Under the pieces are notes generated by a model. The model ran no database searches and had not been told where the DNA came from. It saw nothing but the letters and a program-made list of their open reading frames with translations. A program made the position numbers and the translations under genes. Shown here in pieces: positions 9,444-15,164 of a DNA stretch of 64,000 nucleotides (position 1 is the stretch's first letter; each line of letters begins with the position of its first letter). The stretch comes from Chitinophagaceae bacterium (GTDB taxonomy: Bacteria; Bacteroidota; Bacteroidia; Chitinophagales; Chitinophagaceae), in contig CANGTN010000001.1 in the NCBI GenBank assembly GCA_947456805.1, positions 1-64,000 of the forward strand, in the 5' to 3' direction.

Positions 9444-9641
9444 TTAATCCTTAAAGTCAATTTTTTTGTGTGCTCCATCACAGAAAGGCTTATTAGCAGA
9501 AGCTCCACAACGGCATAATGCAGTTACGCCTGTTTTAATTTCTTCAGCACCATCAACATGTTTAATGGTAACAGTTGATTTTATCAAAATCGGACCCCCT
9601 GGTTTGATTTCAATATTTACAACTGGTGAATTTGTTTCCAT
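9444..9641 (-). CDS. CDGSH-type iron-sulfur protein
   Basis: This 65-residue protein ends in a CDGSH zinc-finger-like motif with Cys43, Cys45, Cys54 and His58 (CRCGASANKPFCDGAH). That is the three-Cys, one-His ligand set of a 2Fe-2S cluster. It is a minimal single-domain form with no targeting signal and is probably a small redox or iron-sulfur transfer protein. It is convergent with the SUI1 gene, with 4 bases between the stop codons and no terminator in the gap. Confidence 0.9.
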   Translation of the reverse strand: METNSPVVNIEIKPGGPILIKSTVTIKHVDGAEEIKTGVTALCRCGASANKPFCDGAHKKIDFKD

Positions 9642-9781
9642 AGTTTATTGTTTTACAAATGATTTAATAATGTGAATGTACTAAAAATTAATTTATTGAT
9701 AAATGATGCAATAACTGTTCAAAGCCATTATTACAATCAAGTACTACATTATTTGCGCTATTCAAAAAAGTATATTTTGCT

Positions 9782-9813
9782 AAAAACAAAAAGTGCCGCA
9801 AGAGCGACACTTT
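9782..9813 (-). terminator. minus-strand intrinsic terminator in the large intergenic gap
   Basis: AAAGTG-C-CGC-AAGA-GCG-A-CACTTT (9790-9813) forms a hairpin with one C/A mismatch. Read on the minus strand it is followed by TTTTTGTTTTTA, a good rho-independent signal. No minus-strand protein gene lies upstream of it. It would therefore end an unannotated transcript, or run-through from somewhere in 9814-10469. Confidence 0.55.
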
Positions 9814-9880
9814 GTATATAGATGGGTTAGTAAGTAATGGGAAATAAATTTCCCTCCACAATATTAAAAAGACTTTTCAC
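9782..9880 (-). ncRNA. candidate small RNA (structure only)
   Basis: On the minus strand this stretch holds the palindrome GGGAAA-TTTA-TTTCCC (plus coordinates 9839-9854), an unstructured linker, and then the terminator hairpin at 9790-9813 with its U-run. The order resembles a small RNA. A TATTTTTG box on the minus strand at 9973-9966 is the nearest exact -7 match, with no clear -33 partner. There is no coding potential. The evidence is weak. Confidence 0.2.
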
Positions 9881-12427: not shown

Positions 12428-12844
12428 TTAATTACAACGATTACAAATGCCACTCACAACAACATCGCGGCGTTTTGGTGCAAACCCTTTTGGTAATTTT
12501 AATTCCGGAATGGTAATATGATCTATACAAATAGTGATATTACAGGCATCACAAATGAAATGAATATGGTTGTCGTGATGATGTCCCTGCTCGCATTCAT
12601 CTTTACACAATGCATATAAAACAGAGTTATCGGCAGTTGGTATTGTATGAATAATTCCTTTATCTACAAAAGTTTGCAGCGTTCTATAAATAGTAACCCT
12701 GTCAAATTGTTCTCCGGTATTTTTTTCAATATCTGCATGAGCCAATGCCCCAATATTTGCTAAAAACAAATCAAGAATTTTTTTTCTGCTTTCAGTAACA
12801 CTAAGATGGTTATGTTTTAATATTTCAAGTGATGCACCTTTCAT
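12428..12844 (-). CDS. Fur family metalloregulator
   Basis: This 138-residue repressor has an N-terminal winged helix (about 10-80) with the recognition stretch FDRVTIYRTLQTF. Its C-terminal dimerisation and metal-binding region has an EQGHHHDNHIHF histidine cluster at about 85-96. Structural zinc pairs are Cys98/Cys101 and Cys134/Cys137. The metal could be iron, zinc or another; the presence of a MerC-domain gene and SCO favours a Zur-like or thiophilic-metal role, which is inference. It lies 6 bases downstream of the SCO gene. Confidence 0.92.
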   Translation of the reverse strand: MKGASLEILKHNHLSVTESRKKILDLFLANIGALAHADIEKNTGEQFDRVTIYRTLQTFVDKGIIHTIPTADNSVLYALCKDECEQGHHHDNHIHFICDACNITICIDHITIPELKLPKGFAPKRRDVVVSGICNRCN

Positions 12845-12850
12845 ACTTAA

Positions 12851-13501
12851 TTAGTTGAACATATTATTTGAAAAGTTTTTGCCTATTGCTTTTTCCTCTA
12901 ATAAACTTTTAATATCTTTTTTAAGTTTCTTTAATTCATCTTCTTTCAATCCATCATATACCTGACCTCTTACAATTCCCTGTTTATCTACCAAAGCAAA
13001 AAATTGAGAATGCATAAAATCATCGTTAATATTTGCAACCTGATTTTTAGGATCATCAATTCCGTAACTAAACCTAGCCATATTGTATAAACTGTCTTTT
13101 CTGCCTGTCAAGAAAACCCATTTTCTCGTATCAACCTGCATAGAATCTGCAAAGCGTTTGATCCTCGCTACAGAATCTTGTTTGGGATTACAGGTGTGTG
13201 ACAATATTAAAAAATTAGATTCATCTTTATATGCCTCATAAACTTTTTTCATGTTGTTATTCATTCTAGGACAAATACTTGGACATGTGGTAAAAAAATA
13301 TTCCACAACACATACTTTTCCTTTGATGTCATCATTAGAAAATACCACTCCATCTTGACTGAAAAACGAAAATGCCTGTACGTTGCCACGCTTAGGCAAA
13401 TAACTCTGATTAAAAGTATCGGTATACTTAGCAAGCATTGCCCAAAATGCCAAAACTAATACTGCAAAAAAACCTAGGTAAAAAAGTAATTTCTTATTCA
13501 T
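12851..13501 (-). CDS. SCO1/SenC family copper chaperone
   Basis: This 216-residue protein has one N-terminal membrane anchor (about 5-23) and a periplasmic thioredoxin-like domain. The copper-binding CxxxC is Cys73-PSI-Cys77, and the conserved His164 lies in DDFMHSQFF, so all three ligands are present. SCO proteins help assemble the CuA centre of cytochrome oxidase. It is the first gene of the leftward SCO-fur-SDR transcript. Oxidase structural genes are not in the window; ctaA lies about 11 kb away. Confidence 0.93.
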   Translation of the reverse strand: MNKKLLFYLGFFAVLVLAFWAMLAKYTDTFNQSYLPKRGNVQAFSFFSQDGVVFSNDDIKGKVCVVEYFFTTCPSICPRMNNNMKKVYEAYKDESNFLILSHTCNPKQDSVARIKRFADSMQVDTRKWVFLTGRKDSLYNMARFSYGIDDPKNQVANINDDFMHSQFFALVDKQGIVRGQVYDGLKEDELKKLKKDIKSLLEEKAIGKNFSNNMFN

Positions 13502-13512
13502 AATTATAATAA

Positions 13513-13520
13513 CAAAAATA
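13513..13520 (-). promoter_or_regulatory. -7 promoter element of the SCO-fur operon
   Basis: Read on the minus strand this is TATTTTTG, an exact TAnnTTTG match 11 bases before the SCO start codon. Transcription would start only a few bases upstream of the ATG. Confidence 0.45.
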
Positions 13521-13558
13521 CAATAGCTTTAGTTGATATTGGTATGAAGAGAAAAATT

Positions 13559-13588
13559 TTTGCAACAAAATTGCAATTATTATATTTG
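13559..13588 (+). promoter_or_regulatory. merC promoter overlapped by TTGCAA repeats (candidate metal operator)
   Basis: TTTG at 13559-13562 and TATATTTG at 13581-13588 form a -33/-7 pair with an 18-base spacer. Between them lies TTGCAA-CAAAA-TTGCAA (13560-13576). Each half is itself palindromic, and a third TTGCA follows at 13586. A repressor bound there would cover the promoter. The divergent fur-family gene is the obvious candidate regulator, but this is inferred from position only. Confidence 0.45.
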
Positions 13589-13596
13589 CATACTTT

Positions 13597-13989
13597 ATGA
13601 AATTCAAAATAAACTGGGATGCTTTAGGTATTGTTACTTCCGTGGCTTGTGCTATTCATTGTGCTGTTTTGCCGCTGTTGATAAGCAGTTTACCATTATT
13701 TGGCATCAATATTATTGATAATGTTTACTTTGAATATTTCATGATAATCATTGCTTTTGTAATAGGCATTTATTCGTTGTATCATGGATTTAAAAAACAC
13801 CACCACAGCTATTTTCCACTCAGTATTTTCAGTATTGGATTTGTATTGCTGTTTGCAAAACAATACTGGCATAATCAACAAGTTTGGTTATTAATCCCCG
13901 CTGTAATACTTATCATTGCTGCACATTTCATCAACTTTCGTTTTTGCAGAATACACAACCATGCTCATAAAGAAGACTGCAATCATTAA
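13597..13989 (+). CDS. MerC domain membrane protein
   Basis: This 130-residue protein has four predicted membrane segments. MerC-type cysteines and histidine lie in the first helix (CAIHC at residues 18-22), and the C-terminal tail is His/Cys-rich (CRIHNHAHKEDCNH). MerC proteins move mercuric or other soft metal ions, but many Bacteroidota homologues lie outside mercury operons and probably handle zinc or copper. No merA or merR is present. The gene is divergent from SCO-fur across a 95-base shared control region. Confidence 0.88.
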   Translation: MKFKINWDALGIVTSVACAIHCAVLPLLISSLPLFGINIIDNVYFEYFMIIIAFVIGIYSLYHGFKKHHHSYFPLSIFSIGFVLLFAKQYWHNQQVWLLIPAVILIIAAHFINFRFCRIHNHAHKEDCNH

Positions 13990-14066
13990 TCGGATTTGAA
14001 TTTGGATTAGAGTGATAATTTTTAATTTGAATTGAAATAATTTGATTGAGTTTATTATCTTCAAGC

Positions 14067-15164
14067 ATGCAAAAAAATAAATATCTCCAATATTTCAATT
14101 TATTTTCTTTGTTCGATACCAAAAGAACAAAAGATCTGTTTCAGGTAAACCCAACATTAACTGTTGAGAGAAAAGAAGCGGAAAAAATTGCTATAGAAGT
14201 ATTTGATTTTACATCAGATACAATAGAAAATCATTCTGTTTCTGATATTAAACTATGTTCTTCATTTAAAGAGAATGGACATATTACCTGGATTAATATT
14301 GATGGCATTCGCAAAGCAGATATAGAAGCTATTTGCAAAGATTATAACATACATTACCTGATTGCAGAAGACATTTTAAGTGTTGGTCAGAGAGCAAAAA
14401 TGGACGAGATAGATACTATTTTATTTTGTCTTTTAAACATGCTTTATTTTAATGAAAAGACCGGTGATGTTGAGCAAGAACAAATCAGCATCATACTTTC
14501 AAAAGACACGGTTATCTCATTCCAGGAGGATGCTGAAAGAGATGTATTTAAAAGCTTAAGAGAAAAGCTAAAAATTACCAATAGCAAACTTAGACAAAGC
14601 GGTGCCGATTATTTATGTTATTCTATGTTGGATATGATTGTAGATCATTATTTTATTGTAATGGAAAAGCTAGGTGAGAGAATTGAATTACTGGAAGAAA
14701 AAATTATTCGCAACAGTAATAAAAGAACATTAGCTGAGATTAATGATTTGCGAAAAGAAATGATAATCTTAAAAAGAAATGTAGCACCTGTAAGAGATTT
14801 GATTAACGGCTTTATCAGGAGTGATAGTCCCATAATTAATGCAAAAACAAATAAGTATTTTAAAGATGTTCATGACCATATTGTACAAGCGAATGAATTT
14901 GCTGAGAACTACAGAGATATGATGATGAATTTGCAAGATCTATATTTAAGCAATGTTAATTTGAAAATGAATGAAGTAATGAAAGTGATGACAATTACAA
15001 CTTGTCTTCTTGCACCGGCAACTGTAATTGGCGGTATTTTCGGAATGAATTTCGAAGTGATTCCTATTGCACACCAAGCATATGGATTTTATATAGCTAT
15101 TGGACTAATGTTGATTTTCCCATTGTTGATGGTATATTTTTTTAAAAAGCGTGGTTGGTTTTAA
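14067..15164 (+). CDS. corA: CorA family magnesium/cobalt transporter
   Basis: This 365-residue protein (ATG at 14067; an upstream in-frame TTG at 14046 is less likely) has a long cytoplasmic funnel domain. Two C-terminal membrane helices follow, with the selectivity motif GMNF in GGIFGMNFEVIP between them. The last residues are basic (FFKKRGWF), as is usual for CorA. It forms a pentameric divalent-cation channel in the inner membrane. It stands alone, and no Mg-sensing leader was recognised. Confidence 0.94.
   Translation: MQKNKYLQYFNLFSLFDTKRTKDLFQVNPTLTVERKEAEKIAIEVFDFTSDTIENHSVSDIKLCSSFKENGHITWINIDGIRKADIEAICKDYNIHYLIAEDILSVGQRAKMDEIDTILFCLLNMLYFNEKTGDVEQEQISIILSKDTVISFQEDAERDVFKSLREKLKITNSKLRQSGADYLCYSMLDMIVDHYFIVMEKLGERIELLEEKIIRNSNKRTLAEINDLRKEMIILKRNVAPVRDLINGFIRSDSPIINAKTNKYFKDVHDHIVQANEFAENYRDMMMNLQDLYLSNVNLKMNEVMKVMTITTCLLAPATVIGGIFGMNFEVIPIAHQAYGFYIAIGLMLIFPLLMVYFFKKRGWF

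Follow-up and report, generated by a model that had tools for sequence, protein, structure and literature searches.

The MerC promoter and its operator

The locus lies in a 64,000-nucleotide stretch of DNA from a Chitinophagaceae bacterium, referred to here as the window, and features a gene for a MerC-domain membrane protein to which a SCO gene and a Fur-family gene are both divergent. The two divergent genes had been proposed by the sequence-only reading, and the gene layout of the window and the Pfam matches confirm them. The features are:

12428-12844, minus strand: Fur-family regulator (PF01475), 138 aa, predicted Zur; 42.6 bits, cut-off 23.1
12851-13501, minus strand: SCO1/SenC-family protein (PF02630), 216 aa; 84 bits, cut-off 22.8
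13513-13520, minus strand: candidate -7 element TATTTTTG of the SCO-regulator promoter, from the sequence and from relatives
13559-13562, plus strand: -33 element TTTG of the MerC promoter, from the sequence; overlapped by the left operator half
13560-13576, no strand: operator TTGCAACAAAATTGCAA, present in the window sequence and conserved in relatives
13561-13575: 7-1-7 core TGCAACA-A-AATTGCA, 15 bp, inside the operator
13581-13588, plus strand: -7 element TATATTTG of the MerC promoter, from the sequence and the TAnnTTTG spacing in relatives
13597-13989, plus strand: MerC-domain membrane protein (PF03203), 130 aa, by Pfam match; candidate zinc importer

The MerC-domain protein scores 88.8 bits against PF03203, which is above the cut-off of 27.6, and its start codon is the ATG at 13597. 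The TTTG and TATATTTG elements upstream of it fit the -33/-7 promoter type of Bacteroidota. The TTGCAA-CAAAA-TTGCAA repeat that had been noted in the sequence is real, and as TTGCAACAAAATTGCAA it fills the gap between the -33 and -7 boxes at the MerC promoter, its left half overlapping the -33 element. Its spacing had been regarded as unlike that of a 7-1-7 box, which is incorrect, as TGCAACA-A-AATTGCA is a 15-bp sequence in the 7-1-7 frame. The consensus box, read as TGCAACn-n-nGTTGCA, is a 7-1-7 palindrome of the Fur-family form. A third TTGCA (13586-13590) had also been counted as part of the operator; it was rejected as a third half-site, belonging to the end of the -7 element and being unconserved as an operator half. 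In relatives, TAnnTTTG starts 21-23 nt past the first operator base in 61 of 74 loci, and none is in range in 8.

On the SCO side, TATTTTTG is 48 bp away from the operator centre and falls outside the operator. A candidate -7 element read towards SCO is located 44-62 bp off the box centre in 52 of 65 cases, therefore the SCO core promoter is left uncovered by the box. Twelve regulator loci have no MerC in view, some of them on contigs that end close by, and a box with at most two mismatches was found in two of these, L150 and L033, in both cases before SCO. Because the box is mostly missing where MerC is missing, it appears to serve MerC first, and it seems to do so ahead of SCO and the regulator gene.

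A gene for a CorA-family transporter (14046-15164; TIGR00383, 270.8 bits) directly follows MerC in the window, and the same order is found in the related genome G005. The protein is also matched by the ZntB model, below its cut-off. In the other relatives of the first set described below, no tblastn match to the CorA-family gene was found after MerC.

Conservation and abundance of the box

The regulator was detected in 40 of 59 related genomes. A first set of 30 regulator loci was retrieved, 25 with MerC and 5 with no MerC in view, and the box is present before MerC in all 25, with 0, 1 and 2 mismatches of 14 in 5, 9 and 11 loci, respectively. A second set, which shares some species with the first, consists of the best 80 loci listed from named genomes (Ferruginibacter, Sediminibacterium, Niastella, Segetibacter and others). 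A divergent MerC gene is found in 73 of these best 80 loci and the box is found in 73/73, with no mismatch of 14 in 15 loci, one in 44, and two in 14. The best of 20 shuffles per locus has two mismatches in 4 loci, three in 33, four in 34, and five in 2. The box centre is located 23-43 bp upstream of the aligned MerC start. The consensus of the box is TTGCAAC-N3-GTTGCAA, and seven positions are invariant in 74 loci, namely GCA and the next C but one in the left half and TGC in the right half, while the flanks of the box are variable.

Matches to MerC occur in 45 of 148 genomes of the phylum, and 30 of these phylum-wide loci were retrieved. All four that belong to Chitinophagaceae have the box with 0-2 mismatches. 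Two loci from another family of the same class feature related boxes, ATGCAACAATATTGCTT with 4 mismatches and ATGCAACTTTATTGCAT with 3, and the latter has a Fur-family gene nearby that is 39% identical. One of the 24 other loci lacks a tblastn match to the MerC of the window, and 22 of the remaining 23 distant loci have no box within 3 mismatches, L232 being the sole one that does. A Fur-family gene is located near the distant MerC locus L243, where the box was not found. The proposal that the operator is lineage-specific thus holds in a loose sense: the box extends across the family and nothing close to it is present in 22 of 23 more distant MerC loci, but two genomes from a second family of the class have related boxes. 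Palindromes resembling ATGCAA-N5-TTGCAA are also located upstream of MerC in L232, L240 and L244, from another class of the phylum (ATGCAAGCTGTTTGCAA, ATGCGAATCGCTTGCAA and ATGCAAATGATTTGCAT), and these are possibly a diverged form of the same box.

The number of motif copies in the window and in the genome is at the chance level. TTGCAA occurs 75 times in the window against 72.3 expected from shuffles, and TTGCAA-N5-TTGCAA pairs with at most two mismatches occur 15 times against 17.1 expected. The 2.4 Mb genome contains 2, 24 and 305 consensus sites at up to one, two and three mismatches, and simulated sequence gives 2.7, 35 and 312.5. A reversed-pattern control was dropped because its half-site contains CpG, and an everted repeat was used in its place. 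Relatives contain this control as often as the box at up to one mismatch, and in the window's genome the strand-counts are 11 for the control and 8 for the box; therefore, counts by themselves carry no signal. What is above chance is the conservation of the box at an exact place before MerC and its position before zinc genes in relatives.

Genes behind the box and the Fur-family regulator

A genome search for the exact N5 motif near metal genes had been suggested. The exact motif was rejected as a regulon marker, as its other three sites in the genome have no metal gene; by sequence reading, one is at the beginning of a short-chain-dehydrogenase-like gene, another is part of a hairpin upstream of an mnmE-like gene, and the third precedes an RNA-methyltransferase-like gene. 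The consensus adds the operon of a ZnuD-like receptor. All 24 genome sites with at most two consensus mismatches were inspected, and those of MerC and the ZnuD-like receptor operon alone are in promoter position before a metal gene, while most of the others are within reading frames. The second target, TTGCAACATAGTTACAT on a different contig (G000:C17:37100-37116), overlaps a TATATTTG element, and its centre is about 14 bp upstream of a frame for a small exported Cys/His protein of 117 aa, for which the TTG start is uncertain. This frame is followed by a TonB receptor that is cut off by the contig end and whose best solved relative is ZnuD (4.2e-21). A site at the start of an ispG-like gene was left as probable chance (L213:18-2927, G000:C9); that gene follows a class D beta-lactamase-like gene, both named by sequence reading.

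In relatives, 20 test sites were chosen by site symmetry among the matches listed, before the genes were inspected and with the known MerC-regulator loci excluded. The 20 control places were everted repeats, either exact or matched on both strands, and the two sets came from overlapping, not identical, genomes. A gene for MerC, a ZigA-like COG0523 protein, a ZnuD-like receptor or an ABC permease starting within 900 bp downstream was scored. Such a gene lies behind 10/20 test sites and 0/20 control sites (Fisher 0.0004), and behind 6/16 and 0/20 when the four loci that supplied reference proteins are removed (Fisher 0.004); in L116, one of those six, the site is inside a reading frame. The other ten test loci are before different genes or within frames; the genes following three of these sites encode small exported proteins or are peptidase-like or ABC-like.

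COG0523 orthologues were found in 7 of 44 genomes, the window's genome having none, and a site with at most two mismatches lies upstream of the gene in 5 of the 7 and is missing in 2. With 571.5 bits, the G011 COG0523 protein falls just below the cut-off of 600 for the zinc chaperone ZigA. For the receptors of G011, G016 and the window's genome, the best-matching relative with a solved structure is ZnuD. Among 12 related receptors in 11 genomes, five have a site with at most two mismatches within 700 bp upstream, one has 3 mismatches, and six have at least 4, the closest relative G005 being among these six. The G011 cluster features three boxes and encodes SCO, a second MerC, an ABC ATPase with an FtsX-type permease, an alkaline phosphatase, the COG0523 protein, the receptor, and two small exported Cys/His proteins. 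In G023, two boxes are located between MerC and COG0523 on one side and an ABC ATPase, a permease and a 154-aa protein on the other. The stretches L103:3774-6032 and L098:3749-6200 have an ABC ATPase, a His-rich FtsX-type permease and a small exported protein adjoining boxes and MerC/COG0523.

The cases that speak most plainly for zinc are those of G020 and G010. In G020 the box TTGCAACTAAGTTTCAA is directly upstream of an operon that encodes a 389-aa protein of no known family, together with a ZnuA-family protein (PF01297, 191.8 bits) and a permease of the ZnuB type (PF00950, 141.5 bits). In NCBIfam, however, this ZnuA scores almost equally for the zinc protein AztC (93.3) and the manganese protein MntC (92.1), all below cut-off. 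In G010, which has no MerC at its three Fur-family loci, the variant box CGCAACAGAGTTGCA separates a ZIP gene (PF02535, 81.6 bits) from a divergent Fur-family gene that has no Cys at the Cys79 position described below. A second Fur-family gene of G010 has YALC at the Cys79 place and faces COG0523, with two weaker sites of 2 and 3 mismatches between them. The six ZIP genes of the family outside G010 (G013, G015, G017, G019, G022 and G025) have no box with at most two mismatches in the 6-kb stretches searched.

These gene kinds agree with the targets of Zur, which include ZnuABC, ZIP (zupT), COG0523 proteins and TonB-dependent receptors according to the available text of a review (PMC6103462). 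The Zur regulons of other phyla in that text are alike in having a Fur-family regulator, a palindromic 7-1-7 box and these target kinds, whereas here the box is TGCAACNNNGTTGCA, MerC is the most constant target, and the regulator gene is in line with SCO. The term 'Bacteroid' was not found in the text of the review. For P. aeruginosa, the portion of PMC4542158 at hand reports a Zur site before PA4063-PA4066, an ABC set that comprises small periplasmic proteins and a permease of the lipoprotein-release type, and another before the ZnuD-type receptor PA0781. The ABC sets of G023, L103 and L098 are similar in kind to PA4063-PA4066, the likeness being one of gene kinds alone, and MerC is not mentioned for the Pseudomonas system in that portion.

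The regulator encoded at 12428-12844 is the sole match in a PF01475 search of the genome. Its AlphaFold2 model has a mean pLDDT of 82.7, its Foldseek matches are Fur-family structures, and the modelled fold fits the Fur, Zur and PerR kinds alike. Among solved structures, its closest relatives are M. tuberculosis FurB/Zur, followed by a mixture of Fur, Zur and PerR proteins; therefore, the metal is not decided by either sequence or fold neighbours. The protein scores 34.5 bits for the E. coli-type Zur equivalog PRK11639 (NF008646), below the cut-off of 167, and is therefore not placed in that family. It is also below the cut-offs of the NCBIfam iron Fur equivalogs, with 24.4 of 146 and 21.5 of 220 bits.

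At the residue level (positions numbered without Met1), 26/26 regulators have His65, Cys79 and His88, which align with His77, Cys88 and His96 of E. coli Zur; these three are described as ligands of its zinc sensor site, Cys88 being the most conserved site-B residue among Zur proteins (PMC4219657, available text). The Zur sensor site is described as having two N, one O and one S ligand (PMC6103462, available text), and the regulator matches three of the four E. coli Zur sensor ligands, the oxygen ligand E111 having no clear partner. Two CXXC pairs, C97/C100 and C133/C136, are also invariant in 26/26 and align with C103, C106, C143 and C146, the structural Zn(Cys)4 site of E. coli Zur. For Cys76 of M. 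tuberculosis FurB, a profile alignment pairs Cys83 and a single-sequence alignment pairs Cys79. A sensor site consisting of D71, C79, H92 and H94 was abandoned in favour of the E. coli Zur alignment.

Taken with the conservation of the box and its gene company, these sequence comparisons suggest that the repeat is the operator of the neighbouring Fur-family protein (12428-12844), a Zur, and stands at the head of a zinc-starvation regulon (probability about 0.87). The earlier proposal of a metal operator over the MerC promoter is thereby upheld, with the neighbouring Fur-family protein as its most likely reader. When zinc is ample, a zinc-loaded Zur dimer would sit between and over the two promoter elements, on TGCAACNNNGTTGCA, and would block RNA polymerase from the MerC promoter, zinc probably being the co-repressor. 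When zinc is scarce, the dimer would release the box and MerC would be produced. The same box would define a zinc-starvation regulon, which in the window's genome may comprise MerC and the operon of the small exported Cys/His protein and ZnuD-like receptor, and in relatives may add ZnuA/ZnuB-type, ZIP, ZigA-like COG0523 and further MerC genes.

It is unlikely that the regulator instead senses iron or haem, as a Fur or a Har-like protein, with the box as the Fur box of the lineage. An iron regulator might be expected of the only Fur-family match in a genome, the fold and sequence neighbours include Fur and PerR, and the best score of the G010 Fur-family gene facing ZIP is to Bacillus Fur, below cut-off. 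Har of P. gingivalis, another Fur-family protein of Bacteroidota with two CXXC pairs that bind structural zinc, binds hemin and is reported as hemin-responsive in the accessible part of PMC4222909; it is likened to the regulator here by Fur family and CXXC pairs only. However, the genes behind the box are of the zinc type, and the sensor-site Cys, a mark of Zur in the available text of PMC4219657, is kept in 26/26 regulators.

A real operator that is bound by a regulator other than the adjacent Fur-family protein is quite improbable. Adjacency alone is not binding, and among the 12 regulator loci with no MerC in view, L150 and L033 are the only ones with the box at up to two mismatches. However, absence of the box where MerC is absent fits a box that serves MerC, not SCO and the regulator gene. 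The box also has the Fur-family 7-1-7 form, adjoins the regulator in all examined MerC loci, and in G010 stands by two other Fur-family genes.

The sequence-only reading had favoured a soft-metal and copper module, in which the box answers copper, mercury or a similar metal and governs export and copper delivery. In its favour are the mercury-derived name of MerC and the role of SCO proteins as copper chaperones. The MerC and SCO genes remain together in both sets of relatives and again in the G011 cluster, and one test site (L112, below) precedes a small Cys-rich protein and an RND-pump-like gene. Against this, the box in relatives precedes ZnuA/ZnuB-type, ZIP, ZigA-like and ZnuD-like genes, which points to zinc starvation, and no recognised copper gene was found among the reference matches behind the test sites. 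The copper receptor OprC also scores far below ZnuD, the best solved relative of the receptors, for two of them. A copper or soft-metal role is thus very improbable, and the question arises of what SCO does so consistently beside a regulator of the zinc type. Chance repeats in an AT-rich promoter would suit the counts in window and genome, but are refuted by the conservation at one position in 73/73 loci (from the best 80 listed) with variable flanks.

The test site in L112 (L112:2938-3289, G017), box-like in sequence, is followed by a gene for a small exported Cys-rich protein and by an RND-pump-like gene, the latter named by sequence reading, and represents either a metal link of another kind or chance. 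In G001 there are three identical box-like matches (L222:2900-2916), and the two inspected ones are within a 291-aa transposase-like frame; they are therefore insertion-element copies and not regulatory sites.

MerC as a candidate zinc importer

The distribution of MerC was compared with that of ZIP and ZnuB in 27 genomes of the family, of which 20 have MerC at the regulator locus and 7 have none there; absence was scored at that locus, and genome-wide for G013 and G022. A ZIP match over the cut-off is found in 1 of the 20 genomes with MerC and in 6 of the 7 without it at the locus (Fisher 0.00016). Ten of the 20 belong to one genus, and kinship was handled by counting genera, which gives 1/11 with MerC and 6/7 without (Fisher 0.0025). 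A clear ZnuB-type match is found in one of the 20 MerC genomes, G020, and weak ABC-3 matches near 21 bits in two of the seven without MerC at the locus, G010 and G013. Thus 18/20 MerC genomes have neither ZIP over the cut-off nor a clear ZnuB, the exceptions being G017 (ZIP) and G020 (ZnuB). Two of the 20 are incomplete, G004 at 80% and G020 at 72%. No match to ZIP or to ZnuB was found in the window's genome.

This pattern makes MerC a candidate zinc importer. It might even be the main inner-membrane zinc importer of most Chitinophagaceae, switched by Zur and replacing ZIP and ZnuABC, a tentative proposal to which somewhat less than even odds are given. If true, the mercury-derived family name would cover an importer for zinc starvation, perhaps partnered with the adjoining SCO protein. 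The window protein is like the MerC of mercury resistance in its PF03203 match over the cut-off and differs in standing under a predicted zinc repressor; neither merA nor merR was recognised among the window genes scanned.

No Zur box of Chitinophagaceae and no MerC under Zur was found in the open-licence literature among the matches listed, and neither is described in the available text of PMC6103462, PMC2770081, PMC4222909, PMC11960050, PMC4542158, PMC9976891 and PMC4219657. The box would provide a defined Zur site and a first regulon for a large Bacteroidota family for which none is named in the available review text or among the literature matches listed. It also raises the question of how zinc crosses the inner membrane in bacteria without ZIP or ZnuB matches, concrete candidates for zinc entry being MerC and the small exported Cys/His proteins encoded ahead of ZnuD-like receptors.

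Small exported His/Cys-rich proteins with a C-terminal (R/K)GPP or similar ending recur behind the box, usually before a TonB receptor. They are encoded at L220:623-976, L214:3686-4057, L098:9009-9338 and 9476-9820, and L105:2791-3111, and in L276, L277 and L285. Those scanned have no Pfam or NCBIfam matches, and they are possibly a family of periplasmic zinc-binding partners.
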